NCBI GenBank assembly: GCA_000961725.1
Contig: LADS01000050.1
Coordinates: 1-64,000, forward strand
Direction of reading: 5' to 3'
DNA length: 64,000 bases
Source: Desulfobulbaceae bacterium BRH_c16a
Lineage (GTDB): Bacteria; Desulfobacterota; Desulfobulbia; Desulfobulbales; Desulfocapsaceae
Shown here: one piece after another, positions 1,722 through 57,848 of the stretch
How the letters are laid out: each line of letters begins with the position of its first letter
Numbering within the stretch: position 1 is the stretch's first letter
Made by a program: the position numbers and the translations under genes
The notes under the pieces: generated by a model
Database searches by the model: none
What the model saw: the letters and a program-made list of their open reading frames with translations, nothing else
Told to the model about the DNA's origin: nothing

Positions 1722-2435
1722 GTGTACGCCCGGCATGGGCGTGATCTTATGGGGTGCAAGCCCCTGTATGTAAACCCTGTTACTGTCGTGATGACAGGAA
1801 CATAAATACTAGCCGAAAGCAAGGGCGTTCCCGCGAGGGCGCGTCCGGAGGAAGCTGGAGCGCAAAACTATGAGCCGACGAACAGAAATGGCATACAAGG
1901 CCGAGTCTCCGGGCAAGTCAGCACAACATGACAAAACCCTGGGTTTAGGAGATACGGTAAATGCTACGGTTGCATAGCGACAGATTACGTTCTTATCCGG
2001 GGAGGCCTGTTCAACGTGCAGTCGCAGTATCGGCAGCGCCCTGTGTGGCAACATGCAGGGAGTTTGGGCAGGAGTCAGCAGAGGCCATAGTAGGCGAAGG
2101 AAGTCACCATGCAGGGGCAATGGAGACTGGAAACGAGCCCGGCGAATTGAAAAGCCGGGAGGACTCACCCCGCTGAAGGGCCAAACTCATAGAAGAAAGT
2201 GAGATCTTAGTTGCTCTGCCACGCATTGAACCCGACCGGGGGAGCGAATCGGCAGGCGCGATGTAAGAACTATCACACTTTCATGTATTATTTGCAGTTG
2301 CCACCTTCTTGTTGTCAAAGAACTGCGGATATACTTCATCCGACTACGGTCCGGTGTTCTTTGGGAACCGCCTGGTGCGGACCCGCATGCCAGGTGGTGT
2401 GGGGGCTGGGGGAGAAAATCCCCCGGCTACCCGAT
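1722..2435 (+). mobile_element. Group II intron lacking its reverse transcriptase
   Basis: The 5' end GTGTACGCCCGGCATGGGCG followed by GTGATCTTATGGGGTGCAAG is the typical start of domain I of a bacterial group II intron. The 3' end carries a domain V hairpin (about 2363-2400: ACCGCCTGG, TGCGG-ACC-CGCA, CCAGGTGGT), then a domain VI stem with GGGGG/CCCCC and the bulged A of GGCTACCCGAT. The domain I-III region is present to about 2200. No LtrA-type maturase/reverse transcriptase is encoded: only about 160 bases lie between the 5' ribozyme part and domain V. The element is therefore an ORF-less or internally deleted derivative that would need a maturase in trans. Boundaries follow the GTG..AT ends and may be off by a few bases. 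Confidence 0.75.
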
Positions 2436-4260: not shown

Positions 4261-4354
4261 GTAAACGTTCACCAGCACCCCCATTTTTGTCCGATCAGGC
4301 CACCTCACTTGTCAGCTCTAACTCGGCGGCCTGCTTGAACCAACCTGTTGTTAC
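4261..4354 (-). repeat. Dispersed repeat family 1, copy A
   Basis: On the minus strand this reads CTGTAACAACAGGTTGGTTC, AAGCAGGCCGCCGAG, GTGAGGTGGCCTGATCGGAC, then GGGGGTGCTGGTGAACGTTTAC. It is homologous to copies at 33810-33917 and 57658-57790. This copy is the most diverged at its left end. Confidence 0.7.
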
Positions 4355-26276: not shown

Positions 26277-27158
26277 ATGGACGCCGCACAAGAAACCAGT
26301 TCTCCCGCTCATCAACATTATTCGCTTATTGCCGAAATGGACCCGCCCAAGGGGGTCAACCTGCAAGGATTTCTCGGGACTGCCCTCCAGGTAAGGGGCC
26401 GGGTCGACACCATCCGGGTTACCGACTGTGAACATGCGATCATGCGTATGTCACCGGTTGCCCCCTGTCTCGCTCTCAAGGACAAAGGCTTCGAGCCGGA
26501 AATGATCATCACCGGCCGAGATCGAAACCGGATCTCCTTTCAGGCCGATCTCCTGTCTGCTGCCGCTCTCGGCATCAAGAAAATTGTCATAAAGGAAGGT
26601 CACGATCCGGCCGAAGGGGATCAACCGGTGGCAAGGACAAGCGGCGATCTCGATCTGGAGTCCATGCTGCAATGCGTCGCTGCTCTCAACAGCGGCAGAG
26701 ATCTTGCGGGGGAGGCTCTCGACGGGGCGACCGATTTTCACGTCGGGGTGGGCATTGAACTTTCCGATGACATCAATTACAACCGGGAAAGGGCCGAGTA
26801 TTTCAGAAAGCTCGCCGTATACGGCGTGCAGTCGGTCACCCTGGGGCCGACCTATGATGTCAATATCATCGAGCAGTTCCTCCCTTTTGCCGAGGAGACC
26901 GGCATAAAGCTTTTCACCTCGGTGATGTTTCTAAAATCTGTGACAATGGTTCGCTACCTCAATAACCTGCCGGGAGTCCCGTCGATTCCCCATGAGTTTC
27001 TGAAAAAAATGATGCAGGCGCCGGTCAAAAAAGATGCAGGAATGCAGGTGGCGGCGGATCTCATAAGGGAACTGGCCCCGCTGGGAGACGGAATTGTGTT
27101 ACTAGCCATAGGTTTAAAGGATAAGCTGCCAGATTTTCTCGACATCATTGGTCGTTAA
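26277..27158 (+). CDS. Methylenetetrahydrofolate reductase-like protein (MetF paralogue)
   Basis: 293 residues of the MetF TIM-barrel family. Typical segments are SLIAEMDPPKG at the N-terminus, RVTDCEHAIMRMSP, MIITGRDRNRISFQADLLSA, the acidic ELSDDINYNRERA, and LFTSVMFLKSVTMVRYLNN. It is a second, more divergent copy in the operon; the canonical metF lies at 35074. Possibly it reduces a related C1-pterin or is a regulatory or alternative subunit. Methylene-THF reductase activity is inferred. Confidence 0.8.
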   Translation: MDAAQETSSPAHQHYSLIAEMDPPKGVNLQGFLGTALQVRGRVDTIRVTDCEHAIMRMSPVAPCLALKDKGFEPEMIITGRDRNRISFQADLLSAAALGIKKIVIKEGHDPAEGDQPVARTSGDLDLESMLQCVAALNSGRDLAGEALDGATDFHVGVGIELSDDINYNRERAEYFRKLAVYGVQSVTLGPTYDVNIIEQFLPFAEETGIKLFTSVMFLKSVTMVRYLNNLPGVPSIPHEFLKKMMQAPVKKDAGMQVAADLIRELAPLGDGIVLLAIGLKDKLPDFLDIIGR

Positions 27159-27168
27159 GCGGGTAACT

Positions 27169-28713
27169 ATGACCGACGTCGTGCATTCGACAGCAGGCAA
27201 GGATCCGGAGGTATTGTACGAAGCTCTGGGTTCCTACCATTATCTTCACACCATTCTCGAAGAGACGCCTAACGGGGTGGTAGTGGCGGGGCTTGACCAT
27301 CGGGTGATCCATGCCAACCCGGCGGCCAGCCGGTTCATCGGAGTACCTTACGGCAGTCTCACCGGAAGCTTGATGGGCGAGATTCTCGGCAAGAGGAACA
27401 GTGCGTTCTTTCGCCTCGTCGAGGAGCATTTTCTGTTGGAGAATCACCGGGACGGCTGGAAGATCCGGCGTGAAATCGAATTATCCCGCAACGACGACCG
27501 ATGCAGCATGATCGGCATGGTCGTGTATCCTCCCGCAACGCCTGCATATTACCTGTTGTATCTGATTGACATTACCCAGCAGAAAATGCTTGAGGGCGAA
27601 CTTAGGCGGCGCAACGCCTTCTTCCATAATCTCATAGACAGTTCGGTGGACGGCATCATTGCTTCGGATATGAAGGGGCGGATCATGCTGTTCAACACCG
27701 GAGCCCAGTCTCTGCTCGGATATGACGAGGAGGAGACAAAGATTCTTCATGTTACGCAGCTGTACAATGAAGGCGTGGCCTATGAAATCATCAAGCGGAT
27801 GCGCAGTAATGACTTTGGCGGCAAAGGTAAGCTCCTGCGCCATAAACTGATCGTCAAGCATAAAAACGGCCACGATATCCCGGTGAGTTTTTCCGGCGGG
27901 ATTATCTATGACAACGATAAGGAAATTGCCACCTTCGGACTGTTTACCGATCTGCGGGCGCTGCAGCAGATCGAGGAAGATCTCGAACAGACCCACCAGA
28001 TGCTGATGCAGTCGGAAAAGATGGCCGGGCTTGGCCGATTGGCGGCGGGGGTGGCACACGAGATCAATAACCCGATGTCGGGAATCATGCTGTATGCCAA
28101 TCTGGTGCAGGAAGAACTCGGTGACGACAGTCCCCTGCGCGAGGATCTGCAGACCATCATCCACGAGGCGGAGAGATGCAAGGTGATTGTCGCCGACCTC
28201 CTGGAGTTCTCGCACCAGAACACCTATGAGATGGAACTGGTCGATCTGAACGACGTGATCCAGAAAACCCTGACCATTCTGCAGCATCAGCCCCTTTTTC
28301 AGAACATCGCCATTATCCGTCAGCTGGACCCGGATCTGCCGCCCATCTACGGCAACTCGATACGACTGAATCAGGTGGTCATGAACATCGTCGTCAACGG
28401 TGCCCAGGCCATGGAAGGCAAAGGCCGGATACGCATTACCAGCAGGACCAGGGCCAATAAAGACATCAACGAAATAGCCATAGAGGATACAGGGCCGGGG
28501 ATTAAGGATGAACTGCTCGAGAAGATCTTCGATCCTTTCTTCACCACCAAGGCAACGGGGGAAGGGACCGGGCTCGGGTTGTCGGTCTCCTATGCAATAG
28601 TCAAGGAGCACAAAGGAACCATCAGAGTGACTTCCACTTCGACATCCGGAACCACCTTTACCCTGAAATTTCCTGTTGTCATGGAAAATTTGACTGGAGA
28701 GAACCATGGATAA
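27169..28713 (+). CDS. PAS-domain sensor histidine kinase
   Basis: About 514 residues; an upstream in-frame TTG at 27148 would overlap the preceding stop. Two PAS domains are seen (ILEETPNGVVVAGLDHRVI, then LIDSSVDGIIASDMKGRI). A HisKA box GVAHEINNPMSG and an HATPase_c domain (DTGPGIKDELLEKIFDPFF, GTGLGLSVS) follow. No transmembrane helix, so it is a cytosolic sensor, perhaps of redox or energy state. It lies between the MetF paralogue and hdrC and overlaps hdrC by 8 bases, so it belongs to the same transcript. Confidence 0.9.
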   Translation: MTDVVHSTAGKDPEVLYEALGSYHYLHTILEETPNGVVVAGLDHRVIHANPAASRFIGVPYGSLTGSLMGEILGKRNSAFFRLVEEHFLLENHRDGWKIRREIELSRNDDRCSMIGMVVYPPATPAYYLLYLIDITQQKMLEGELRRRNAFFHNLIDSSVDGIIASDMKGRIMLFNTGAQSLLGYDEEETKILHVTQLYNEGVAYEIIKRMRSNDFGGKGKLLRHKLIVKHKNGHDIPVSFSGGIIYDNDKEIATFGLFTDLRALQQIEEDLEQTHQMLMQSEKMAGLGRLAAGVAHEINNPMSGIMLYANLVQEELGDDSPLREDLQTIIHEAERCKVIVADLLEFSHQNTYEMELVDLNDVIQKTLTILQHQPLFQNIAIIRQLDPDLPPIYGNSIRLNQVVMNIVVNGAQAMEGKGRIRITSRTRANKDINEIAIEDTGPGIKDELLEKIFDPFFTTKATGEGTGLGLSVSYAIVKEHKGTIRVTSTSTSGTTFTLKFPVVMENLTGENHG

Positions 28714-29269
28714 TACCTGCATTTCACCCGATGAGCGGAACGAAAAATTCCTCAGTAAACTGAAGGCCAGGAATATCGATGTGCATGCCTGTTACCAGTG
28801 CGGGCGCTGTTCTTCAGGCTGTCCTGTCGGGGATTTTTTTGATTTTAACGTCATGGAAGTTGTCAGGCTCGCCGCCTACGGCCAGGAGGAAAAGCTCCTG
28901 CACAGTCATACCATCTGGCTCTGTGCGGCCTGTGAAACCTGTGCCACCCGGTGTCCGAATGAAATTGAAATCGCCGGTCTCATGGATGTCCTGCGGGAGC
29001 TTGCCTTGAGGCGGGGCATTCCGCCGGCCGAGCCGCGTATCCCGCTGTTCCATCAATCGTTTCTCGGGTCGATACGAAGCTTTGGCCGAGCCTGGGAGAT
29101 CGGCATGATCGGCAACTATAAACTGCGTTCGGGGGATCTGGCTGGAGACATGAAACTTGGCCTGCGCATGTTCATGAAAGGCAAGCTCAATCTTTTACCC
29201 CACTCGATCAAGGGAAAGTCGGAAATAAGAGAAATCTTTTCCGGCAAGGGAAAGGAGTATGACCGATGA
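28706..29269 (+). CDS. hdrC: Heterodisulfide reductase subunit C-like
   Basis: 187 residues with two 4Fe-4S motifs: CYQCGRCSSGCPV and CAACETCATRCPN. No membrane segment, so it is the soluble HdrC of Hdr complexes. It transfers electrons between HdrA and HdrB. It overlaps hdrB by 4 bases (ATGA), tight translational coupling. Confidence 0.9.
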   Translation: MDNTCISPDERNEKFLSKLKARNIDVHACYQCGRCSSGCPVGDFFDFNVMEVVRLAAYGQEEKLLHSHTIWLCAACETCATRCPNEIEIAGLMDVLRELALRRGIPPAEPRIPLFHQSFLGSIRSFGRAWEIGMIGNYKLRSGDLAGDMKLGLRMFMKGKLNLLPHSIKGKSEIREIFSGKGKEYDR

Positions 29270-30129
29270 AACTATCCTATTACCCCGGCTGTTCCCTCGA
29301 AGGAACGGCGCTCGATTATGACCGGTCGGTTCGGGCAGTCTGCAAAAGGCTGGGTATCGAACTGGTAGATATTCCCGACTGGAACTGCTGCGGTGCATCT
29401 TCGGCCCATATGACCGATCATGAGACCGGCATGCGACTGCCCATCCGCAACCTGCTGCTGGCGGCAGAGGCAGGGCACGATATTCTCGTTCCGTGCGCCG
29501 CCTGTTATCAGCGGTTGAAGGCGGCGGACAAGGCCTTGCGGGCCGATCCCGGCTTTTGGGATGTCGGCAGATATGCGACCGATCTGCAGATCATTCATAT
29601 CAGTTCTTTTCTTGCCCGGCCGGAGATGCTTGCGGCCATCGAGGCGAAGGTCGCTAAAAACCTGAAGGGCTTACCGATAGCCTGCTATTACGGATGCCTC
29701 TCGCTGCGTAATCCGCGGATAACAGATGCTCCGAGCTGGGAGATGCCGACGACCCTTGAGGGCATCGTCGCAACGCTTGGCGCAAAAGCGGTTAGCTGGT
29801 CGCATCGGACCGAATGCTGCTCCGGCAGTCTCACCATGGCAAGGCCCGACATTGCCGAAAAGCTGGTCGGCGATATTGTCCGCGCGGCTAAACGGGCGGG
29901 GGCAAGGGCGATGGTAACCGATTGCCCGATGTGCCAGGCCAACGTTGAAAGCCGACAGACGACGCCAGCCGGTGCAGGCGACATGCCGGTATTTTTTGCC
30001 ACCGAACTGATCGAAGCGGCAATGAGTGGAACGTATCCGGCAAAACAGCAGCGGGCGCATCTTGTTTCCCCGGTAATTTTCGCCGGGATTTTCAATGAAG
30101 CGACCATGAAAAAGGAGGATTCGGCATGA
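29266..30129 (+). CDS. hdrB: Heterodisulfide reductase subunit B-like
   Basis: 287 residues with two CCG domains. In the first, YYPGCSLEG, NCCGASS and PCAACYQRL hold the CxnCCGxnCxxC pattern. In the second, CYYGCLSL, ECCSGSL and TDCPMCQ do, with CCS in place of CCG. HdrB carries noncubane 4Fe-4S clusters. In complexes with MetVF the natural electron acceptor of HdrB is still unknown. It overlaps hdrA by 4 bases. Confidence 0.9.
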   Translation: MKLSYYPGCSLEGTALDYDRSVRAVCKRLGIELVDIPDWNCCGASSAHMTDHETGMRLPIRNLLLAAEAGHDILVPCAACYQRLKAADKALRADPGFWDVGRYATDLQIIHISSFLARPEMLAAIEAKVAKNLKGLPIACYYGCLSLRNPRITDAPSWEMPTTLEGIVATLGAKAVSWSHRTECCSGSLTMARPDIAEKLVGDIVRAAKRAGARAMVTDCPMCQANVESRQTTPAGAGDMPVFFATELIEAAMSGTYPAKQQRAHLVSPVIFAGIFNEATMKKEDSA

Positions 30130-33100
30130 AAGGAGACCTCAACAGCTTTTCAGGATCAAAAGAGCATCCGACTGCCGCCGTCCTCGTTATAGGTGGAGGG
30201 ATCAGCGGGATGCAGTCGGCGCTCGATCTCGCCAATGCCGGAATCAAGGTCTATCTGGTGGAAAGCTCGCCTGCCATCGGCGGCAAGATGGCTCAGCTGG
30301 ACAAGACATTTCCCACCAATGACTGCTCGATGTGTATCGTTTCACCCAAGCTTGTCGAGGTGGGCCGGCACAGAAATATCGACCTTTTCACCCACAGTGA
30401 GATCAAAAGCCTTGAAGGGGATCCCGGAAGATTCAAGGCAACCGTGGTCAGCCACGCCCGCTATGTCGATACCAAAGCCTGCACCGGCTGCGGACTCTGC
30501 GAGATCGTCTGTCCGGTGACCCAGATTTCCCACTTTCCGGTAATGCCTCAGGAAGGGGAGAAAAAAACCCGCGCCAGAGCCAAAGAAAAGAGAATTATTA
30601 AAGGACCGGGACTGCCGCAGCCAAAAAGCGCGCACAAATGGGCTTTTACAGTCGATACTGCAACCTGCGGGATGTGCGGCGGCTGTTTCAAGGCCTGTCT
30701 GCACGGAGCGGTCAGTTGGGAAAAAAAACAGGTGGCTTTAATCGATCAGAATAAATGCACCGGTTGCGGGGCCTGCTTTACCGCCTGTCCGGATAAGTTC
30801 TCGGCGATCGCGATCGATCAGGCGCCGGACCTCGACAAGAGCGTCGGCGCGGCTGTTCATGCCAGATCCCAGCTGCTCAAGAAGGAATACAGGGGAACCG
30901 ATCAGAAGGATTGCATCCGCTGCGGTCTCTGCGCCATCACCTGCGATAAGGTGATGAAAATCGGGGCCTTGAAGATGGTTGAGGAAGGCATTGAGGCTGG
31001 CGTCGATATCTGCCAGGTCTGCGGCGCCTGCGTGTCGGTCTGTCCGGTTAATTATCTCACGATCGATCAGGTCACCAACAAGACCCCCCGGCCGCTGCTC
31101 GACAGTTTCAACGAAGGCCTGAACGGTCGAAAACCGATAAACATCCACTATCCTCAGGCGGTGCCGAGGGTGCCTGTCATCGACGAGGCGAGCTGTGTGC
31201 AGTTGAATACCGGGGCCTGCGGCACCTGTGCCTCGATCTGCGGGGTGGGGGCAATCCACTATGACCACCGGGAGGAAGAAACCGAGATAGACATCGGCTC
31301 GGTGATCTTTTCGCCGGGAATAGAAGTTTTCGATGCCAGACTGCGGGGCGAGTTCGGCTACGGAATGTATAAGAACGTCGTCACCAGTATCGAGTTCGAA
31401 CGGCTGCTCTCCGCCTCCGGGCCGACCTCCGGGACGGTGGCCCGTCCGGGAGATGCGAAACACCCGAAAAAGATCGCCTGGATCCAGTGCGTCGGCTCCC
31501 GCGACCATTCGTGCGACCGCGATTACTGTTCGTCGGTCTGCTGCATGTATGCAACCAAAGAGGCTTTTATTGCCCGGGAACATGATAACAACATCGAGCC
31601 GACCATTTTCTATATCGACATGCGTTCGTTCGGCAAGAATTTCGATAACTATGTTACCCGCGCCAAAGAGCACAATGTCCGCTTCGTCCGGGCCATGGTC
31701 AGCAGAATCTTCGAAGACCCGGTAACCGGCGATCTCGAATTGCGCTATGTCGACGGCTCCGGCGTGAGACAGTCGGAAGTTTTCGATATGGTGGTGCTTT
31801 CCGTAGGCATCCAGGTGCCGAAGGCAACCAGGGAACTGGCCGGCAAACTCGATATCGATCTCGACCGCTACGGATTCGTGGTCACCGATTGCTATCAGCC
31901 GCTGGCGACATCCAGGCCGGGAATCTTTGTCAGCGGCGCGGTTAAAGGGCCAAAGGATATTCCGGAAACGGTCTGCGAGGCGTCAGCCGCCGCAGAGGCC
32001 GCCTCCGCCGGCCTGGCCGGGGAGCGCGGCAGCCTTATCACCGCCGAATCCCTGCCGCCGGAACGCAAGGTCGAACCCGGTGAAGAGTTGCGGGTCGGTG
32101 TCTTTATCTGTCACTGCGGCACCAACATCGCTTCGGTGGTCGATGTCGAGGCGGTAACCGAATACGCCAGGACGCAGCCCGGAGTAGTGTATGCCGAGCA
32201 TCCTTTATACACCTGCTCCCAGGATTCGCAGGAGCGGATGCGCGAGATTATCAAAGAGCACCGGCTGAACAGGGTGGTGGTCTCGGCCTGCTCGCCGAGC
32301 ACCCATGAGCCGCTGTTTATGTCGACCCTGCAGCAGGCCGGGTTGAATAAATATTTCTTCGATATGGCCAACATCCGTGACCAGTGCAGCTGGGTCCATC
32401 CCGACGATCCGGCACTGGCCACCGAGAAATCGAAAAGGCTGACCCGTATGGCTGTGGCCAACGCCACCGCCGGGGAACCTTTGCAGGAAATGGAGTTTAC
32501 CGTCGATGCAAGGCTGCTGGTGGTAGGCGGTGGACTTGCCGGCATGACGGCGGCTCTCGAGGCAGCGAGGCAGGGCTTCGGCGTCTATCTGGTCGAAAGA
32601 GAACCGCAGCTGGGTGGTCAGCTTGTCAACCTGCAGCGCAGCAGCGATGGCCGGAAATTTGCCGATTATCTCACCGAACTCAAAGACAAGGTGGTAAGCA
32701 ACGAGCGGATCAGGGTCTTTACCAGCAGCGAAGTGGTTGAGCAATCGGGCTTTGTCGGCTCGTTTGAAACCGAGATCGTCATGCCCACCGGAGGCACTAG
32801 AACTTTGAAGCATGGCGCGATACTGGTGGCGACCGGGGCCGAGGAATATCGACCGGAAATCCATGGCCTTGGCCTGCTTGATACGGTAATTACCCAGACC
32901 GATCTGGAAACGGAACTGGAAAACGGTCCAAAAGCCGACTGGCGCCATCTTCGCGTAGTCATGCTCCAGTGCGCCGGCTCCCGCGATGCCGATCATCTGG
33001 CCTACTGTTCACGAATCTGCTGCAACCAGGCGGTCAAGAATGCGAGACGGCTGAAAGCATTGTATCCCGAGGCCCGGATCGATGTACTCTACCGCGATAT

Positions 33101-33758
33101 GCGCTGCTATGGACTGGGTGAGGCCGATTATAGCCTCGCCCGGCGGGCCGGGATCAATTTTATTCGGTTCGATCCGGAAGAAAATCCGGTTGCGATCAGT
33201 GCCGAGGAAACCGGTGTCGAAGTCACTCTTACCGATCCCTCTATCAGGATGCCGGTACGACTCCGTCCCGATCTGCTGGTCCTTTCCACCGGCATGAAAC
33301 CGCGTGACGCCGAGGAGCTTGCTTCGATGCTTCGGGTGCCGAGGAACGATGCCGGTTTCTTCATCGAAGCTCATGCCAAGCTGCGGCCGGTCGATCTGCC
33401 GAGCGAGGGATTGTTCATGGCCGGAACCGCCCACGGGCCAAAGAGCAGTACCGAAACCATCGTCCAGGCCCAGGCTGCGGTGGCGCGGGCGGCGACGCTG
33501 TTGTCCCGGGAAAGCATGAAGATGTCGGGGGTTGTGTCGGTGGTCGATCCGACCCATTGCGCCGTCTGTCTTACCTGCGTGCGGGCCTGCCCGTACGGGG
33601 TGCCGTTTATCAACGACCAGCATTCGGCCGAGATCAACCCGGCACTCTGTCAGGGCTGCGGGATCTGTGTGGCCGAATGTCCTGCCAAGACCATTCATCT
33701 TGGCAGATATGATGACAAAAACATCAGAGCAAAGATTGAATCGTACAGTGCGTCCTGA
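30126..33758 (+). CDS. hdrA: Heterodisulfide reductase subunit A-like, duplicated fusion
   Basis: 1210 residues, nearly twice a normal HdrA. The N-terminal half has an FAD-binding VIGGGISGM near residue 20, NDCSMC near 70, and a run of 4Fe-4S motifs: CTGCGLCEIVCPV, CGMCGGCFKAC, CTGCGACFTACPD, CIRCGLCAITC and CQVCGACVSVCPV. From about 650 a second HdrA begins: VGVFICHCGTNIASVVD, a second FAD site VVGGGLAGMTAALEA near 796, QCAGSRD, and C-terminal ferredoxin motifs CAVCLTCVRACPYG and CQGCGICVAECPA near 1144 and 1175. HdrA performs flavin-based electron bifurcation. The first half looks like a QmoA/HdrA-type module. All cluster cysteines seen are intact. Confidence 0.9.
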   Translation: MKGDLNSFSGSKEHPTAAVLVIGGGISGMQSALDLANAGIKVYLVESSPAIGGKMAQLDKTFPTNDCSMCIVSPKLVEVGRHRNIDLFTHSEIKSLEGDPGRFKATVVSHARYVDTKACTGCGLCEIVCPVTQISHFPVMPQEGEKKTRARAKEKRIIKGPGLPQPKSAHKWAFTVDTATCGMCGGCFKACLHGAVSWEKKQVALIDQNKCTGCGACFTACPDKFSAIAIDQAPDLDKSVGAAVHARSQLLKKEYRGTDQKDCIRCGLCAITCDKVMKIGALKMVEEGIEAGVDICQVCGACVSVCPVNYLTIDQVTNKTPRPLLDSFNEGLNGRKPINIHYPQAVPRVPVIDEASCVQLNTGACGTCASICGVGAIHYDHREEETEIDIGSVIFSPGIEVFDARLRGEFGYGMYKNVVTSIEFERLLSASGPTSGTVARPGDAKHPKKIAWIQCVGSRDHSCDRDYCSSVCCMYATKEAFIAREHDNNIEPTIFYIDMRSFGKNFDNYVTRAKEHNVRFVRAMVSRIFEDPVTGDLELRYVDGSGVRQSEVFDMVVLSVGIQVPKATRELAGKLDIDLDRYGFVVTDCYQPLATSRPGIFVSGAVKGPKDIPETVCEASAAAEAASAGLAGERGSLITAESLPPERKVEPGEELRVGVFICHCGTNIASVVDVEAVTEYARTQPGVVYAEHPLYTCSQDSQERMREIIKEHRLNRVVVSACSPSTHEPLFMSTLQQAGLNKYFFDMANIRDQCSWVHPDDPALATEKSKRLTRMAVANATAGEPLQEMEFTVDARLLVVGGGLAGMTAALEAARQGFGVYLVEREPQLGGQLVNLQRSSDGRKFADYLTELKDKVVSNERIRVFTSSEVVEQSGFVGSFETEIVMPTGGTRTLKHGAILVATGAEEYRPEIHGLGLLDTVITQTDLETELENGPKADWRHLRVVMLQCAGSRDADHLAYCSRICCNQAVKNARRLKALYPEARIDVLYRDMRCYGLGEADYSLARRAGINFIRFDPEENPVAISAEETGVEVTLTDPSIRMPVRLRPDLLVLSTGMKPRDAEELASMLRVPRNDAGFFIEAHAKLRPVDLPSEGLFMAGTAHGPKSSTETIVQAQAAVARAATLLSRESMKMSGVVSVVDPTHCAVCLTCVRACPYGVPFINDQHSAEINPALCQGCGICVAECPAKTIHLGRYDDKNIRAKIESYSAS

Positions 33759-33809
33759 GCGGGGTAATGGTTCACAGGAATATATCGAAAGACTGCACAA
33801 CCTGGAGCT

Positions 33810-33917
33810 GTAACCGTTCATCCAGTGCTCCAGGTTCGTTCAAGCAGGCCGCCGAGCTAGAGTTGGCTCTGTGAGGTGGCCTGATCGGACGAAAATGGGG
33901 TGCTGGTGGACGGTTAC
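33810..33917 (+). repeat. Dispersed repeat family 1, copy B, inside the hdr operon
   Basis: GTAACCGTTCATCCAGTGCT at the left and GGTGCTGGTGGACGGTTAC at the right form terminal inverted repeats. The core contains TTCAAGCAGGCCGCCGAGCT and GTGAGGTGGCCTGATCGGAC. It lies between hdrA (ends 33758) and mvhD (starts 33954), the only large gap in an otherwise overlapping gene series. Confidence 0.8.
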
Positions 33918-33953
33918 TGAGCGGGATGAACGGTAATTTTCAGGAGGAGGAGA

Positions 33954-34412
33954 ATGATGAGTGACTTTTCACCCAGTGTCATAGTCTTTGCCTGTCGCCA
34001 TTGAGCGTATTCCGCCGCGGACCTGGCAGGTTCGGAAAGAAGGAGATATCCCCCGGCAATCAGCATCGTCATGCTGCCCTGTACCGGTCGCATAGATGAA
34101 TCGCTGTTGCTGAAAGCCTTTGAAAACGGGGCGGACGGGGTGATGGTAGTCGGATGTCTGGAGGGAGACTGCCATTATGTATCGGGCAATATCCGCGCCC
34201 GGGCACGAGTCAACAGAGTGTATGCAATACTGGATAAAATCAAGATCGGACCCGATCGCATCAGGATGTTCAACCTGAGTGCCGGGGAGGGCTCGAAATT
34301 TGCCGCGTATGCCAATGAGTTTGTCGGAAAAATTCGGGAACTCGGTCCCAGCCCTATCAATCTGGTGCGTGCGGGACAAGCTCACGCAGTATCACAGAAG
34401 GAGACAACATGA
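33954..34412 (+). CDS. mvhD: MvhD-type electron carrier, putative selenoprotein
   Basis: 152 codons from ATG 33954, after CAGGAGGAGGAGA, to 34412. An in-frame TGA at 34002-34004 is codon 17. Read as selenocysteine, the start is MMSDFSPSVIVFACRHU, followed by AYSAADLAGSERRRYPP. This matches the FACxxC-(Y)-xxADLAG opening of MvhD, where the TGA takes the place of the second Cys. Downstream, CTGRIDESLLLKAFENGADG and GCLEGDCHYVSGN are the remaining 2Fe-2S ligands and family motifs. The family includes selenocysteine forms in methanogens (VhuD). It passes electrons to HdrA. It overlaps metV by 4 bases. If TGA is a stop, only the C-terminal part from 34071 would be made. Confidence 0.85.
34010..34037 (+). 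promoter_or_regulatory. Candidate bacterial SECIS hairpin
   Basis: Starting 6 bases after the TGA, TTCCG (34010-34014) pairs with CGGAA (34033-34037). After an internal loop, ACC (34021-34023) pairs with GGT (34029-34031), with apical loop TGGCA that contains the GG expected for SelB binding. Position and size fit a bacterial SECIS, but the stem is short and unconfirmed. Confidence 0.5.
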
Positions 34413-35074
34413 TTACTGGTACCCCAAAACCCATCGAAGAGATTCTGGAAATGCTTGAGCCATACGACAACATCATTCTCGCCGGTTGTCATGGTTGTGT
34501 TACCGTCTGTCGGGTCGGCGGGGAAAAGGAGGTGCAGGTGCTGGCCTCGACACTGCGTCTTGCCCGTGAGGCTGCCGGCCGGAAAATCAATATCAGGGAA
34601 GTAAGCCTCGAGCGGCAGTGCGATCCCGAATATGTCGAGCAAATGCGGCCCTATGTGGCGGATCATCAGGCGGTATTGTCGATTGCCTGCGGGGCGGGCA
34701 TACAGTTTCTTGCCGAAAAATTCACCATGACTCCTCTTCTGCCGGGGATCAACACCGGCTTTCTCGGGGTTACCGAGCGGCAGGGAGAGTGGTCGGAGAG
34801 GTGCCAGGGCTGTGGCGACTGTGTGCTGCATCTGACCGGCGGCATCTGTCCCGTCACCCGCTGTGCCAAGTCACTCTTCCATGGACCCTGCGGCGGCTCG
34901 GTGCAGGGAACCTGCGAAGTGAGCAAGGATGTCAAGTGTGGCTGGCAGCTCATTATCGATCGATTGAAATCATTGAATCAACTGGAGAATTACGGCAAAT
35001 TGAAACCGTACAAAGGATGGTCGACGGCAAGGGACGGCGGACCGCGCCGCATACTCAGGGAGGACATGATATAA
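34409..35074 (+). CDS. metV: MetV, methylenetetrahydrofolate reductase C-terminal domain protein
   Basis: 221 residues rich in cysteine: AGCHGCVTVC near the N-terminus, then CQGCGDCVLHLTGGICPVTR, CAKSL, GPCGGSVQGTCEV and KCGWQ. This is the MTHFR_C zinc/Fe-S domain that partners MetF in acetogens and links it to HdrA/MvhD electron flow. Its stop and the metF start overlap as TAATG at 35074. Confidence 0.9.
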   Translation: MITGTPKPIEEILEMLEPYDNIILAGCHGCVTVCRVGGEKEVQVLASTLRLAREAAGRKINIREVSLERQCDPEYVEQMRPYVADHQAVLSIACGAGIQFLAEKFTMTPLLPGINTGFLGVTERQGEWSERCQGCGDCVLHLTGGICPVTRCAKSLFHGPCGGSVQGTCEVSKDVKCGWQLIIDRLKSLNQLENYGKLKPYKGWSTARDGGPRRILREDMI

Positions 35075-36000
35075 TGAAATCGGGAAGCAATCTGGAAAAG
35101 GTACTGGCGGCAGGGCACTTTTCAGTCACTGCGGAGTGCGGTCCTCCCCGTGGTGCCGACCCGGAAATCGTCCGGAAAAAGGCGGCCTTTGTCAGGGGCA
35201 ATGTCGATGCCTGCAATGTCACGGACAATCAGACATCGGTGGTTCGGATGAGTTCTCTTGCCGGCTGCCTTCTGATCAAGGAGGAGGGCATTGAGCCGCT
35301 CATCCAGATGGTAGTCAGGGACCGCAATCGCATCGCCCTGCAGTCCGATCTGCTCGGCGCCTCGGCGATGGGTGTGCGCAACCTGCTCTGCCTGTCCGGC
35401 GATCATCAGAAATTCGGTGACGATCCCCAGGCCAAAAATGTCTTTGACATCGATTCGATGCAGTTCATCCACCTGGTCAAGTCGATGCGCGATGACGGAA
35501 CCTTCCCGTCCGGCAAGAAACTTGAAGGGGCGCCTCTCTTTTTTATCGGCTGCGCCGTCAACCCCTTTGCCGATCCGTTCGAGATCAGGGTGCCGCGGTT
35601 GAAATTGAAAATCGCGGCAGGCGCCGATTTCGTCCAGACCCAGTGCATCTACAATATGAAGAAATTCAAAGAATATATGGAACTGGCAAAAAAGGAAGGC
35701 CTGCATGAAAAAGTCAAGATCCTGGCCGGGGTGACCCCGCTCAAATCGGCGGGAATGGCGAAATTCATGCGCAAGATGGTGGCGGGGATGGATATCCCCG
35801 ATGAGGTCATCAACCGGATTTCCGCAGAGCCGAAAGAGAAGCAGGCGGAAAAAGGGATCGAAATGTGCATCGAACAAATTCAGGAGCTCAGGGAAATGGA
35901 GGGCATCGCCGGGGTGCATGTTATGGCTATCGAGTGGGAAGAAAAATTACAGGAAATCATTGGTGGTGCGGGTTTACTCCCTCGACCTGTGGTAGAATAA
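35074..36000 (+). CDS. metF: Methylenetetrahydrofolate reductase
   Basis: 308 residues, FAD-binding MetF barrel: VTAECGPPRGADPE, NVTDNQTSVVRMS, VVRDRNRIALQSDLLGA, CLSGDHQKFGD, GCAVNPFADP, FVQTQCIYN and VKILAGVTPLKSAGMA. Catalyses reduction of methylene-THF to methyl-THF in the Wood-Ljungdahl methyl branch, or the reverse during acetate or formate oxidation. Last gene of the hdrCBA-mvhD-metVF set. Confidence 0.93.
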   Translation: MKSGSNLEKVLAAGHFSVTAECGPPRGADPEIVRKKAAFVRGNVDACNVTDNQTSVVRMSSLAGCLLIKEEGIEPLIQMVVRDRNRIALQSDLLGASAMGVRNLLCLSGDHQKFGDDPQAKNVFDIDSMQFIHLVKSMRDDGTFPSGKKLEGAPLFFIGCAVNPFADPFEIRVPRLKLKIAAGADFVQTQCIYNMKKFKEYMELAKKEGLHEKVKILAGVTPLKSAGMAKFMRKMVAGMDIPDEVINRISAEPKEKQAEKGIEMCIEQIQELREMEGIAGVHVMAIEWEEKLQEIIGGAGLLPRPVVE

Positions 36001-36039: not shown

Positions 36040-36426
36040 ATGGCTGAGAAAAAGAAAATTCTGCTCGTTGACGATGATCCTGATTTTGTCGAGGCAGTAC
36101 GCGTGATCGTGGAAAGTGGCGGCTATGATGTGCGGGTGGCATATGACGGTCAGGAAGGACTTGATGCGGTTGCCGAAGAAAAACCGGACCTCATTGTCCT
36201 CGATGTCATGATGCCGGTGATGAATGGTCATGCCGCCTGTGCCCGCCTGAAAGGCAATCCGGAGACGGCCAAGATCCCGATAATCCTTCTTACAGCCGTC
36301 GCCGACCGGGTTACGACCAGCACCTATACCCACCGTGACATGCTGGAGAGCGAAGCGGAGGATTACATGCCGAAGCCGGTGGAACCCGCTGAACTGCTTA
36401 ATCTCATCAAGAGCTGGCTGCAATAG
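36040..36426 (+). CDS. Single-domain response regulator
   Basis: 128 residues, a receiver only: KILLVDDDPD, phospho-acceptor Asp55 in IVLDVMMPVMNG, a Thr at LLTAV and a Lys in MPKPVEP. No output domain, so it acts by protein contact, perhaps as phosphorelay intermediate for the operon's kinases. It follows metF by 39 bases. Confidence 0.9.
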   Translation: MAEKKKILLVDDDPDFVEAVRVIVESGGYDVRVAYDGQEGLDAVAEEKPDLIVLDVMMPVMNGHAACARLKGNPETAKIPIILLTAVADRVTTSTYTHRDMLESEAEDYMPKPVEPAELLNLIKSWLQ

Positions 36427-36522: not shown

Positions 36523-38031
36523 ATGAATAATGTACGTATTCTGGTCATAGATGATGAAAAGGTTATCCGGGAAGGGGTGGAGCGTGCCCTTGCCAAAAGA
36601 GGTTATGAAATCGCCAAAGCGGAAGACGGCAACCGGGGGCTGGAGCTGCTCAAGGAGATGCATTTCGATATCGTCCTCACCGACCTCATGATGCCCGGTC
36701 TCGATGGTTTTGCCGTCCTCGACTGGATTCGCGAAAATCAACCGCATGTCCAGGTTATCGTCATTACCGGATTTGCCACGGTTACCAAAGCGGTAACCGC
36801 CATGAAGCAGGGAGCTTTCGATTTTGTCGGCAAGCCTTTCACACCGGATTATATCCGGGTAGTGGTGGATAGGGCCATCGACAGGCTGACCATGCGGGCC
36901 GAAACCGAAAAGCTGCGTGAAGAAAAAAACAGGGGCCTGGAAGCCATCGATAAATCCCAGAGCCGGCTGAAGACCGTTTTCAGCTGCATGGCCGAAGCGG
37001 TTCTTATTACCGACGCGGAGGGAATCGTCGTCCTGCACAACCCCGCCGCCATCAAGATCCTCGAGATCCAGACCGATCCGTTTATCGGCAAGCCGCTGTC
37101 GGCTTCGATCAGGGATAAAACAGCGGTAAACATGGTGAATGAGGCAATGAGCAAGGGGATGGTGGTCACCCGGGAGTTTGTCCCCGGTGCTATCTCCCGC
37201 AAATTTCTTCGGGCCTATTGTTCTCCGGTGACCAATGAACAGGGCATGGTGATCGGGTCGGTCACTACTTTTGAGGATATCAGTGCCCATAAGCAGATTG
37301 ACAGGATGAAGTCGGATTTCGTGGCGATGGTTGCCCACGAACTGAAATCGCCCCTTGCCTCAGTAGAACAGATGATCTATGCCGTGCAGGTGGGATGTGA
37401 GTATGAGGTGCTCAACAACTGCAATGCTCTGCATAAGCGAATGACAACAAGGACCAAGGATCTCCTGCGATTGATCGACAACCTGCTCAATCTGTCAAAA
37501 CTGGAGAGCGGCACGGTGGTCTTCAATCTTGAACCGGTGCGGGGCGATGATATCATTCGCGAGGTGATCGATATCACCAAGCCCCAGGCTGACGGCAAGG
37601 GGATAACCATCGGCTATCATCCGTGCGGAGAAGAATGGCTTTTTAACATCGACTACGATCATATGCGGACGGCGATCATGAACATCGTCTCCAACAGCGT
37701 CAAATATACCCCGGACGGCGGCCGGGTGCTCCTCAGCACCGAAGTCATCGGCGGATTTGTCAATCTCATCGTGCAGGACACCGGCATCGGCATCGGCGCG
37801 GAGGATCTGCCGCATATTTTCGATCGTTTCTTCCGGGTCAAAGGCAAAGCCACCCGCCACATAACCGGGTCGGGTCTAGGACTTGCCCTGGTCAAGGAGG
37901 TGGTCGAGGCACATCAGGGGTATATCGATGTGCAGTCCACTCCGCAGGTGGGTACCACCTTTACCCTCAGTTTTCCTCTCGCTCAAAAGAATGGCGCGTC
38001 CATCCCGGAACTTCAGCTGAACGCCGGGTAG
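36523..38031 (+). CDS. Receiver-PAS-histidine kinase
   Basis: 502 residues: N-terminal receiver with Asp54 (IVLTDLMMPGLDG, KPFTPD), PAS domain (CMAEAVLITDAEGIVVLHNP), HisKA box VAHELKSPLASVEQ with His near 272, and HATPase_c (NIVSNSVKYTPDGG, DTGIGIGAEDLPHIF, GSGLGLALV). Cytosolic. The receiver-first order suggests it is itself controlled by phosphorylation. With the upstream kinase and receiver it makes a three-protein signalling set on the Hdr-Met transcript. Confidence 0.9.
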   Translation: MNNVRILVIDDEKVIREGVERALAKRGYEIAKAEDGNRGLELLKEMHFDIVLTDLMMPGLDGFAVLDWIRENQPHVQVIVITGFATVTKAVTAMKQGAFDFVGKPFTPDYIRVVVDRAIDRLTMRAETEKLREEKNRGLEAIDKSQSRLKTVFSCMAEAVLITDAEGIVVLHNPAAIKILEIQTDPFIGKPLSASIRDKTAVNMVNEAMSKGMVVTREFVPGAISRKFLRAYCSPVTNEQGMVIGSVTTFEDISAHKQIDRMKSDFVAMVAHELKSPLASVEQMIYAVQVGCEYEVLNNCNALHKRMTTRTKDLLRLIDNLLNLSKLESGTVVFNLEPVRGDDIIREVIDITKPQADGKGITIGYHPCGEEWLFNIDYDHMRTAIMNIVSNSVKYTPDGGRVLLSTEVIGGFVNLIVQDTGIGIGAEDLPHIFDRFFRVKGKATRHITGSGLGLALVKEVVEAHQGYIDVQSTPQVGTTFTLSFPLAQKNGASIPELQLNAG

Positions 38032-43580: not shown

Positions 43581-43614
43581 AAAAAAGACCCCGCAATAAT
43601 GCGGGGTCTTTTTT
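43581..43614 (-). terminator. Rho-independent terminator of csp
   Basis: AAAAAAGACCCCGC, loop AATAAT, GCGGGGTCTTTTTT: a strong stem with T runs on both strands, 20 bases after the csp stop. Confidence 0.9.
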
Positions 43615-43634
43615 AGTGGGCTCTGTCGGGATTC

Positions 43635-43835
43635 TTAGTCCTGAACAACATTGGCCGCTGCAGGACCTTTGGGGCCGTCAACGACCTCGAAGGTGACCCG
43701 CGCGCCTTCAGTCAGGGATTTGAAACCCTGGGCCTGAATCGCGGAGTGATGTACGAATACATCCTTGCCGCCATCTTGTTCAATAAAACCAAAACCTTTT
43801 GAATCGTTAAACCACTTTACTGTACCTTGAGCCAT
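43635..43835 (-). CDS. Cold-shock protein
   Basis: 66 residues, CspA family OB fold: [16 protein letters not shown] (RNP1) and [10 protein letters not shown] (RNP2), closing with [11 protein letters not shown]. An RNA chaperone. It lies 108 bases downstream of the RhlE-type helicase gene; the gap may hold its own promoter and cold-responsive leader. Confidence 0.95.
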
Positions 43836-43943
43836 CTTGTACTACTCCTTTGTGCGGGGTAAAACCCCTTTTGTGTATAGAGCCGAAACATCACATGATA
43901 CTTCGACTGGTTGTCTGGATTTCCAGACAAATCTTGATAATAA

Positions 43944-45212
43944 CTATCTTTGTACCGGCTTTCTCGTGCCGAAATCAAAGGAGCACGCTCTGCTCCGTCC
44001 TTTTTGATTGCGGCCCGCTGTGGCGGGTTTTTGTGAAGTCGGTTTGTAGCGGGTAGTGTTTTCTCTTCCCGCTGCGCGTCGTTCTTCTTCGGTCGCGGGG
44101 GCAATAGCGGGAAGCGCCTCGCGGACCATTCTCTTGCCGAGATTGCGTTCGATGAGCGCTATCATCTTGCCGTCCTCTTGACCGGCAAAGGTGAGTGCCT
44201 GCCCTGACCGTGTTGCCCTGCCGGTTCGTCCGGTGCGATGGGTATAGGTCTCGGCGGTATCCGGCACGTCAAAGTTGATGACATGGGAAATACCGGTTAC
44301 GTCAATCCCGCGGGCGGCTATGTCTGTTGCAACCAATACTTTGAAAGTGCCATCCCGGAAGCCATCCAGCGCCTGCTGCCGTTTCTGCTGGGAAAGATTG
44401 CCCTGCAGCGAGGCTGCACTGAAACCTGCCTTTTCCAGATGGAGGGCCAGGCTTTTAGCCTTGTGCTTGGTGCGGGTGAAAACCAGAGTGCTGGTCATCT
44501 CCTGCTCATGGATGATACTCTTCAGCAAAGATGTTTTCTGCGCCGTGGCAACCTGGAAAAGAACATGGGAAATTCTCGGGGCCGGCAGGTCATGGTCGAT
44601 CTGCACGGTCGCCGGGTTCACCAGAAGTTCTTCGGCCAGATGGCGGATTTCGTGAGGCATGGTGGCGGAAAAAACCAGAGACTGGCGTTTGGTCGGCACC
44701 AGCTTGATGATCCGCCGGATATCCGGGAGAAAACCCTTGTCGAACATATGGTCGGCTTCATCCAGCACCAGCACTTCCACGGTGTTGAGGCTCAGAGCCT
44801 TGTCATTGATCAGGTCAAGCAGGCGGCCCGGACAGGCGACGACAATTTCCACCCCGGCACGAAGTGTTCTGATCTGCAATCCTTTACCCACACCGCCATA
44901 GATGACGATGCTGCGCAGGCCGGTTTCTTTGCCCATCATGCCGATATTCTCATGGATCTGCTCGGCGAGTTCCCGTGTCGGTGCAACTATCAGAGCCCGC
45001 ACTTTTTTGCGGGGACCATCGAGCAGCCGCTGGAGAAGGGGCAGAACGAACGCTGCGGTTTTCCCGGTTCCAGTCTGGGCCAGGCCGAGGATGTCGCGGC
45101 CGGCGAGGATCGACGGGATAGCATTTTTCTGAATAGGGGTGGGTGCGGTGTAGCCGCAGGCTTCAATGCCGGCGGATATTGTCGGGTGAAAATTAAACTC
45201 TTTAAAACTCAT
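43944..45212 (-). CDS. DEAD-box RNA helicase (RhlE type)
   Basis: 422 residues. Q motif (FNFHPTISAGIEACGYTAPT), Walker A AQTGTGKT, PTRELAEQ, LDEADHMFDKGF, SAT, VLVATDIAARGID and HRTGRTGRA are all intact. A short basic C-terminal tail (KPTSQKPATAGRNQKGRSRA) aids RNA binding. With Csp downstream this forms a typical RNA-remodelling pair. Confidence 0.93.
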   Translation of the reverse strand: MSFKEFNFHPTISAGIEACGYTAPTPIQKNAIPSILAGRDILGLAQTGTGKTAAFVLPLLQRLLDGPRKKVRALIVAPTRELAEQIHENIGMMGKETGLRSIVIYGGVGKGLQIRTLRAGVEIVVACPGRLLDLINDKALSLNTVEVLVLDEADHMFDKGFLPDIRRIIKLVPTKRQSLVFSATMPHEIRHLAEELLVNPATVQIDHDLPAPRISHVLFQVATAQKTSLLKSIIHEQEMTSTLVFTRTKHKAKSLALHLEKAGFSAASLQGNLSQQKRQQALDGFRDGTFKVLVATDIAARGIDVTGISHVINFDVPDTAETYTHRTGRTGRATRSGQALTFAGQEDGKMIALIERNLGKRMVREALPAIAPATEEERRAAGRENTTRYKPTSQKPATAGRNQKGRSRACSFDFGTRKPVQR

Positions 45213-57657: not shown

Positions 57658-57790
57658 GTAACCGTTCACCAGCACCCCATTTTCGTCCGATCAGGCCACC
57701 TCACATAGCCAACTATCGGAGTCTCCCGATGGTCGCTTACCTGCTCGGCGGCCTGCTTGAACGAACCTGGAGTACTGGATGAACGGTTAC
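57658..57790 (-). repeat. Dispersed repeat family 1, copy C
   Basis: Read on the minus strand it begins GTAACCGTTCATCCAGTACT and ends GGTGCTGGTGAACGGTTAC, near-identical to copy B. An extra 25-base middle contains GACCATCGGGAGACTCCGAT, a hairpin. Terminal inverted repeats are GTAACCGTTCA/TGAACGGTTAC. Confidence 0.8.
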
Positions 57791-57848
57791 AGATCCCGGG
57801 TTATTCAGTCTTTTGGTGTGTACCGGTGCACGATAACTGAGGAGAGAT

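Follow-up and report, generated by a model that had tools for sequence, protein, structure and literature searches.

A putative selenocysteine-containing MvhD, truncated by standard ORF calling, in a conserved HdrCBA-MvhD-MetVF gene cluster of Desulfobulbaceae bacterium BRH_c16a

In the stretch of 64,000 nucleotides of contig LADS01000050.1 that was analysed here (the window), a reading frame of MvhD type contains an in-frame TGA, which raises the question whether this codon terminates a short protein or is decoded as selenocysteine (Sec) within a longer one. The frame runs on the plus strand from 33954 to a terminal stop at 34410-34412, and its sole internal stop is the TGA at 34002-34004 (codon 17). 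Translated with TGA as Sec it gives MMSDFSPSVIVFACRH-U-AYSAADLAGSERRR..., with the putative Sec as second residue of a CxxC motif, and the MvhD opening with a TGA at the second cysteine, which the initial annotation had read upstream in the same frame, is thus confirmed. A mechanical ORF caller places the start at 34071 and reports only 34071-34412, exactly the kind of truncation that had been anticipated for automatic callers. That this ORF is just the later part of MvhD, as had also been claimed, follows from the match of the read-through protein to Pfam PF02662 (FlpD/MvhD; 3.3e-46, 156.7 bits, curated cut-off 22.3), which begins upstream of 34071 and in which residues 9-131 cover the entire profile (1-123 of 123). 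Solved MvhD structures match by sequence to residues 2-134 (5odc, 4e-36). Five Cys/Sec positions are conserved in the family (14, 17, 43, 68, and 73 in the window gene). Judged by its sequence, the window gene is an MvhD/FlpD with a predicted Sec replacing one of these five cysteines, and the Sec at position 17 may ligate or tune the [2Fe-2S] cluster of MvhD. The start of the gene had been proposed to follow a strong ribosome binding site. This site, GGAGGAGG at 33943-33950 on the plus strand, is present, and purine-rich sites also precede the start in relatives, but the exact start has to be revised. Two ATGs (33954 and 33957) lie downstream of the site, and ATA replaces the first of them in 5 of the 12 relatives printed (L032, L033, L034, L036, L041). 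Therefore, translation more likely starts at the second ATG, 33957.

A scan of a collection of 84,980 species, each represented by a single genome, yielded 103 stretches encoding a relative, of which the best 80 were kept. The TGA is present at exactly the same codon in 79 of these 80, a count which, the homologues being related, does not represent 79 independent events. The single remaining homologue (L069) has Cys aligned with the TGA of the window gene, as have paralogues such as L004, L141, and L142. The other four cysteines of MvhD are Cys in all of the best 80, and the base following the TGA is G in all 79 Sec homologues. Instead of a true stop with a downstream start, which had been named as evidence against read-through if seen in close relatives, these genes have the TGA inside a continuous protein. 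Two cultured relatives, Desulforhopalus singaporensis (L038) and Desulfopila aestuarii (L061), are among those with the TGA. Within an order-level set of 193 genomes, 182 have a match, and the 24 best-scoring hits all contain an internal TGA; among these 24, G128, G173, and G149 contain two TGAs, and G147 has a TAA in addition. Among the matches listed, three hits are free of stops (60-72% identity; in G104, G184, and G149), and each of the three genomes also has a Sec gene. Within about 7 kb on each side, two of the stop-free hits are not adjacent to MetV or MetF, and the third is situated at the end of its contig. Two Cys paralogues (L161, 7236-7679, and L162, 6971-7387) are 61-65% identical to the window MvhD and do not adjoin MetVF; their genomes also carry the Sec gene.

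The pattern of substitutions bears on the two simplest alternatives. If the TGA were a true stop and translation restarted at ATG 34071, a protein of 113 residues would result, and this is precisely the ORF given by the mechanical caller. Such a product would, however, be devoid of Cys14, position 17, and the beginning of the FlpD domain (residues 9-39), and the codons upstream of 34071 vary mostly silently. Compared to the window gene, the first 33 orthologues show 217 silent and 88 non-silent differences in the codons that separate the TGA from 34071, against 1336 silent and 490 non-silent differences in codons 40-130. From the TGA to 34071 the gene therefore evolves like its remainder. Codons 3-16 are under weaker constraint (134 silent, 104 non-silent), with changes still mostly silent. 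Given also that the TGA is kept in nearly all of the best 80 homologues, a restart is very improbable. Even harder to believe is a recent Cys-to-stop mutation or a sequencing error, by which the gene would be or appear a pseudogene: according to the genetic code TGT and TGC are one base away from TGA, but the same TGA is found in the 79 homologues and the hairpin codons described below are frozen. On this homologue evidence, all three readings (pseudogene, sequencing error, and restart further downstream) were rejected.

Decoding of the TGA depends on the Sec machinery, which had been named as a further check, and SelA, SelB, SelD, and tRNA-Sec are all present in the genome (G000; 6.5 Mb in 72 contigs, completeness 96.6%, contamination 6.0%). 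SelA was found with 6e-163 and SelB with 3e-107. The tRNA-Sec match reaches 72 bits (cut-off 47); each of the 14 control genomes also has weaker matches to this family, in five of them above the cut-off. A second match in the genome (47.3 bits) probably represents a different tRNA. SelD is above the cut-off at three places, with a TGA inside each. As a separate observation, two of the three SelD places (the three being L026, L027, and L028) share score and frame length and are located on different contigs.

Bacterial SECIS elements are hairpins that follow soon after the TGA and carry a G early in the loop. The hairpin at 34018-34034 on the plus strand, 20 nt past the TGA, agrees with this rule, having a 7-bp stem (34018-34024/34028-34034) and a GGC loop (34025-34027), and is proposed as the SECIS. 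The initial annotation had described a hairpin with a GG loop that begins 6 bases downstream of the TGA. In the fold predicted for 34002-34045, a weak outer stem of 3 bp indeed begins there, with the loop being GGC, but it is the inner stem of 7 bp that relatives conserve. Folding of this region, which had been recommended, thus predicts a hairpin but of ordinary energy: its stability does not exceed chance (z 0.17), 104 of 200 shuffled sequences being equally or more stable, and Sec and Cys sites have indistinguishable mean fold energies (p 0.55). When hairpins are scored with a demand for an early G in the loop, 77 Sec sites exceed 41 Cys sites (p 4e-9, with sequences that are not independent).

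The clearest sign of a SECIS is the codon choice. Taking one site per locus, counting sites identical over 48 nt once, dropping loci without the protein motif, and bearing in mind that the species-collection and the order-level sets may include the same species twice, D-L-A is encoded by GAC-CTG-GCA in all 76 Sec sites. GAC is used for D in 76/76 Sec versus 14/24 Cys sites, GCA for A in 76/76 versus 5/24, and GGT for G in 74/76 versus 0/24; M replaces L in 17 of the 24 Cys sites. The Ala two codons before D is encoded in the Sec sites by all four codons (23, 22, 20, and 11 times). The core GACCTGGCAGGTTC is present in 73/76 Sec sites and in none of the 24 Cys sites. Where the peptide is identical (DLAGS), the core is found in 73/75 Sec and 0/4 Cys sites, this peptide being present in just 4 of the 24 Cys controls. 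Going by these counts, the hairpin codons are frozen in the Sec genes. Searching 33700-34120 against Rfam revealed nothing at gathering score, and at loose thresholds a single match of 14.9 bits (gathering 150, E 2.5), which was taken as chance. A codon-usage scan of the window for more TGA-interrupted genes gave seven candidates, all of them weak, and missed the known site at 34002.

The reading of 33954-34412 as a Sec-MvhD gene, put forward in the initial annotation, is therefore supported. The frame, the family, the Sec machinery, and the conserved state of TGA and hairpin codons can be seen in the sequence, and from these we infer Sec insertion in the cell: 33957 (or 33954) to 34412 very probably encodes full-length MvhD, in which SelB and tRNA-Sec would decode the UGA at 34002-34004 as Sec under the direction of the hairpin situated just 3' of the UGA and inside the coding sequence.

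The gene is part of a cluster of ten genes on the plus strand. The cluster is headed by a second, divergent MetF-like gene (26277-27158; PF02219, 40 bits), which is followed by a PAS-domain histidine kinase gene overlapping both its neighbours (27148-28713). The next genes are hdrC, encoding the 4Fe-4S subunit (28706-29269), and hdrB with CCG domains (29266-30129), both assigned by domain match and by the gene order of relatives, and hdrA (30126-33758), which encodes a protein of 1210 residues with a nucleotide/FAD-binding and several 4Fe-4S domains and has no in-frame TGA. Downstream of mvhD are metV (34409-35074; PF12225), metF (35074-36000; PF02219), a response regulator gene (36040-36426), and a receiver-PAS-histidine kinase gene (36523-38031). 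All ten genes, including the MetF-like and the signalling genes, are found in the same order in each of the seven relatives fetched from the 193-genome order set. The six genes from hdrC to metF are contiguous on one strand (28706-36000), and their product would be an Hdr-type methylenetetrahydrofolate reductase (HdrCBA-MvhD-MetVF). To judge from homologues, the [2Fe-2S] cluster of MvhD would link HdrA to a partner module, which would here be MetVF, and Sec-MvhD would accordingly be expected to carry electrons between HdrA and MetVF. It could also be that the Sec gene is real and MetVF a mere neighbour, the module serving another Hdr-linked donor or acceptor. Four MvhD copies of the same genome (L002, L003, L005, L006) are without MetV within 1.5 kb on either side, and in one homologue (L110) the downstream genes are HdrC and HdrB, not MetV. 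However, metV is located within 0.9 kb downstream in 77 of the 79 Sec loci, one of the two exceptions (L078) reaching its contig end, and hdrA is found upstream in 77 of the 79. In addition, pull-downs described in a Sporomusa study connect MvhD with MetF (PMC9430772). Another partner is thus unlikely, and MetVF is the probable partner of the Sec-MvhD.

The genome has eight FlpD matches, six of which contain a TGA (L002, L003, L005, L006, L007, L008). L005 and the window gene have a predicted Sec at the CxxC site (site 1). In L002, L003, and L008 it is predicted at a second site (G-U-x-x-G-[DEQ]-C), and L006 has one at each site; none is present in L004 or in L009, the latter an HdrA fusion. 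MetV and MetF are adjacent to three of the copies: the window gene with Sec at site 1, L004 with Cys only, and L008 with Sec at site 2. Beside the remaining copies, neither MetV nor MetF was found within about 1.5 kb. The idea that MetVF-linked MvhD always contains Sec was rejected on account of L004, which is all-Cys and MetVF-linked, and of the MetV loci counted below. PF12225 (MetV) has at least five matches in the genome. Among the 30 loci of best-scoring PF12225 hits, an MvhD motif is present at 25, of which 23 are all-Cys, one has Sec at site 1, and one has Sec at site 2.

The region between hdrA and mvhD is occupied by a MITE-like repeat of 154 bp with inverted ends (33764-33917). It is flanked by an 8-bp duplication, TGAGCGGG, at 33756-33763 and 33918-33925, and the first copy of the duplication starts with the hdrA stop codon, so that the repeat was inserted on the hdrA stop. 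The gap between hdrA and mvhD is shorter than 40 bases in L032-L034; in L031 it is longer and of unlike sequence. Further copies within the window are located at 57658-57837 and 4261-4347, both on the minus strand. The 154-bp stretch has 48 matches in the genome, and because some of these are the opposite arm of a listed copy, the repeat occupies about 40 places. Its right end occurs 43 times in the genome versus 0 in the control. Nine copies were recognised by their end pattern (two in the window and seven at the nine other loci scanned), and eight of these nine have a duplication of 8-9 bp, L200 having none. In the ORF lists, inspected by eye, no obvious transposase was seen at five places with the repeat end. 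Because the RNA of 33765-33950 would fold strongly (a very strong predicted fold, z -7.2), the repeat may affect mvhD expression in BRH_c16a. The copies L198 and L199 have identical flanks, which, like the duplicate SelD places, could reflect either real duplication or mixed strains (contamination 6%). Elsewhere in the window, Rfam matches were obtained for group II intron D1-D4 near the window start (1827-1991 and 2037-2118, plus strand) and for the cspA thermoregulator (43581-43999, minus strand; 85.7 bits, gathering 78).

Sec-FrhD/MvhD is an established selenoprotein family (PMC1794560, PMC2702500, PMC5109826, PMC13188914). FrhD has been listed as a bacterial Sec family since at least 2006, with 19 members and Sec-FrhD in several deltaproteobacteria (PMC1794560), and a 2026 review lists the CxxU position of FrhD/MvhD/VhuD as well as several Sec residues in archaeal FrhD/VhuD (PMC13188914). 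The window gene shares the family (PF02662) and the CxxU position. The FrhD operons described there are of hdrA-frhD-frhG-frhA types with hydrogenase subunits, whereas the window copy precedes metV-metF. Among sulfate reducers, Sec-MvhD is described for Desulfococcus multivorans and for Desulfobacterium autotrophicum (mvhD1, 2, 3, and 5). The mvhD of D. multivorans is likewise split into two locus tags (dmul_C28840/50), and its mvhD2 adjoins hdrA2 and hdrBC, both likened here by description (PMC5109826, PMC2702500). The text of the D. multivorans paper does not mention MetF or MetV, which the window gene adjoins. In the archaeal complexes whose structures are solved, MvhD has a [2Fe-2S] cluster and joins Hdr to the electron-donor module (PMC12350162). 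For Moorella and Sporomusa, the hdrCBA-mvhD-metVF genes have been proposed to encode an Hdr-type methylene-THF reductase (PMC9430772, PMC5736913), with the same six subunits as the window operon and, in Sporomusa, the same order hdrC, hdrB, hdrA, mvhD, metV, metF (PMC12456013, PMC11385720). Unlike in Moorella and Sporomusa, the conserved cluster of the window includes the MetF-like gene and two-component genes. MetVF was absent from HdrBCA-MvhD copurified from Sporomusa ovata, while pull-downs showed contact (PMC9430772), and because MetVF did not copurify the complex may be loose. The passages of open-access papers that were consulted yielded no statement tying Sec-MvhD to MetVF in this group. 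The link may nevertheless be known in substance, since the list for Moorella thermoacetica contains FrhD and HdrA (PMC1794560).

The present analysis adds the conserved ten-gene cluster, the three MetV-linked MvhD copies with three selenium patterns, and the MITE-like repeat at the hdrA stop. Standard ORF calling loses residues 1-39 of MvhD including two of the five Cys/Sec positions, and a central electron-carrier subunit then appears truncated. It is possible, if somewhat doubtful, that the cluster encodes a sensor-controlled, selenium-dependent methylene-THF reductase, and that the three MetV-linked HdrA-MvhD modules are isozymes used according to redox state or selenium supply, here via the PAS kinase and the regulators. 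With Sec at two different places or none, these three modules allow a natural comparison between Sec and Cys in a single class of enzyme.
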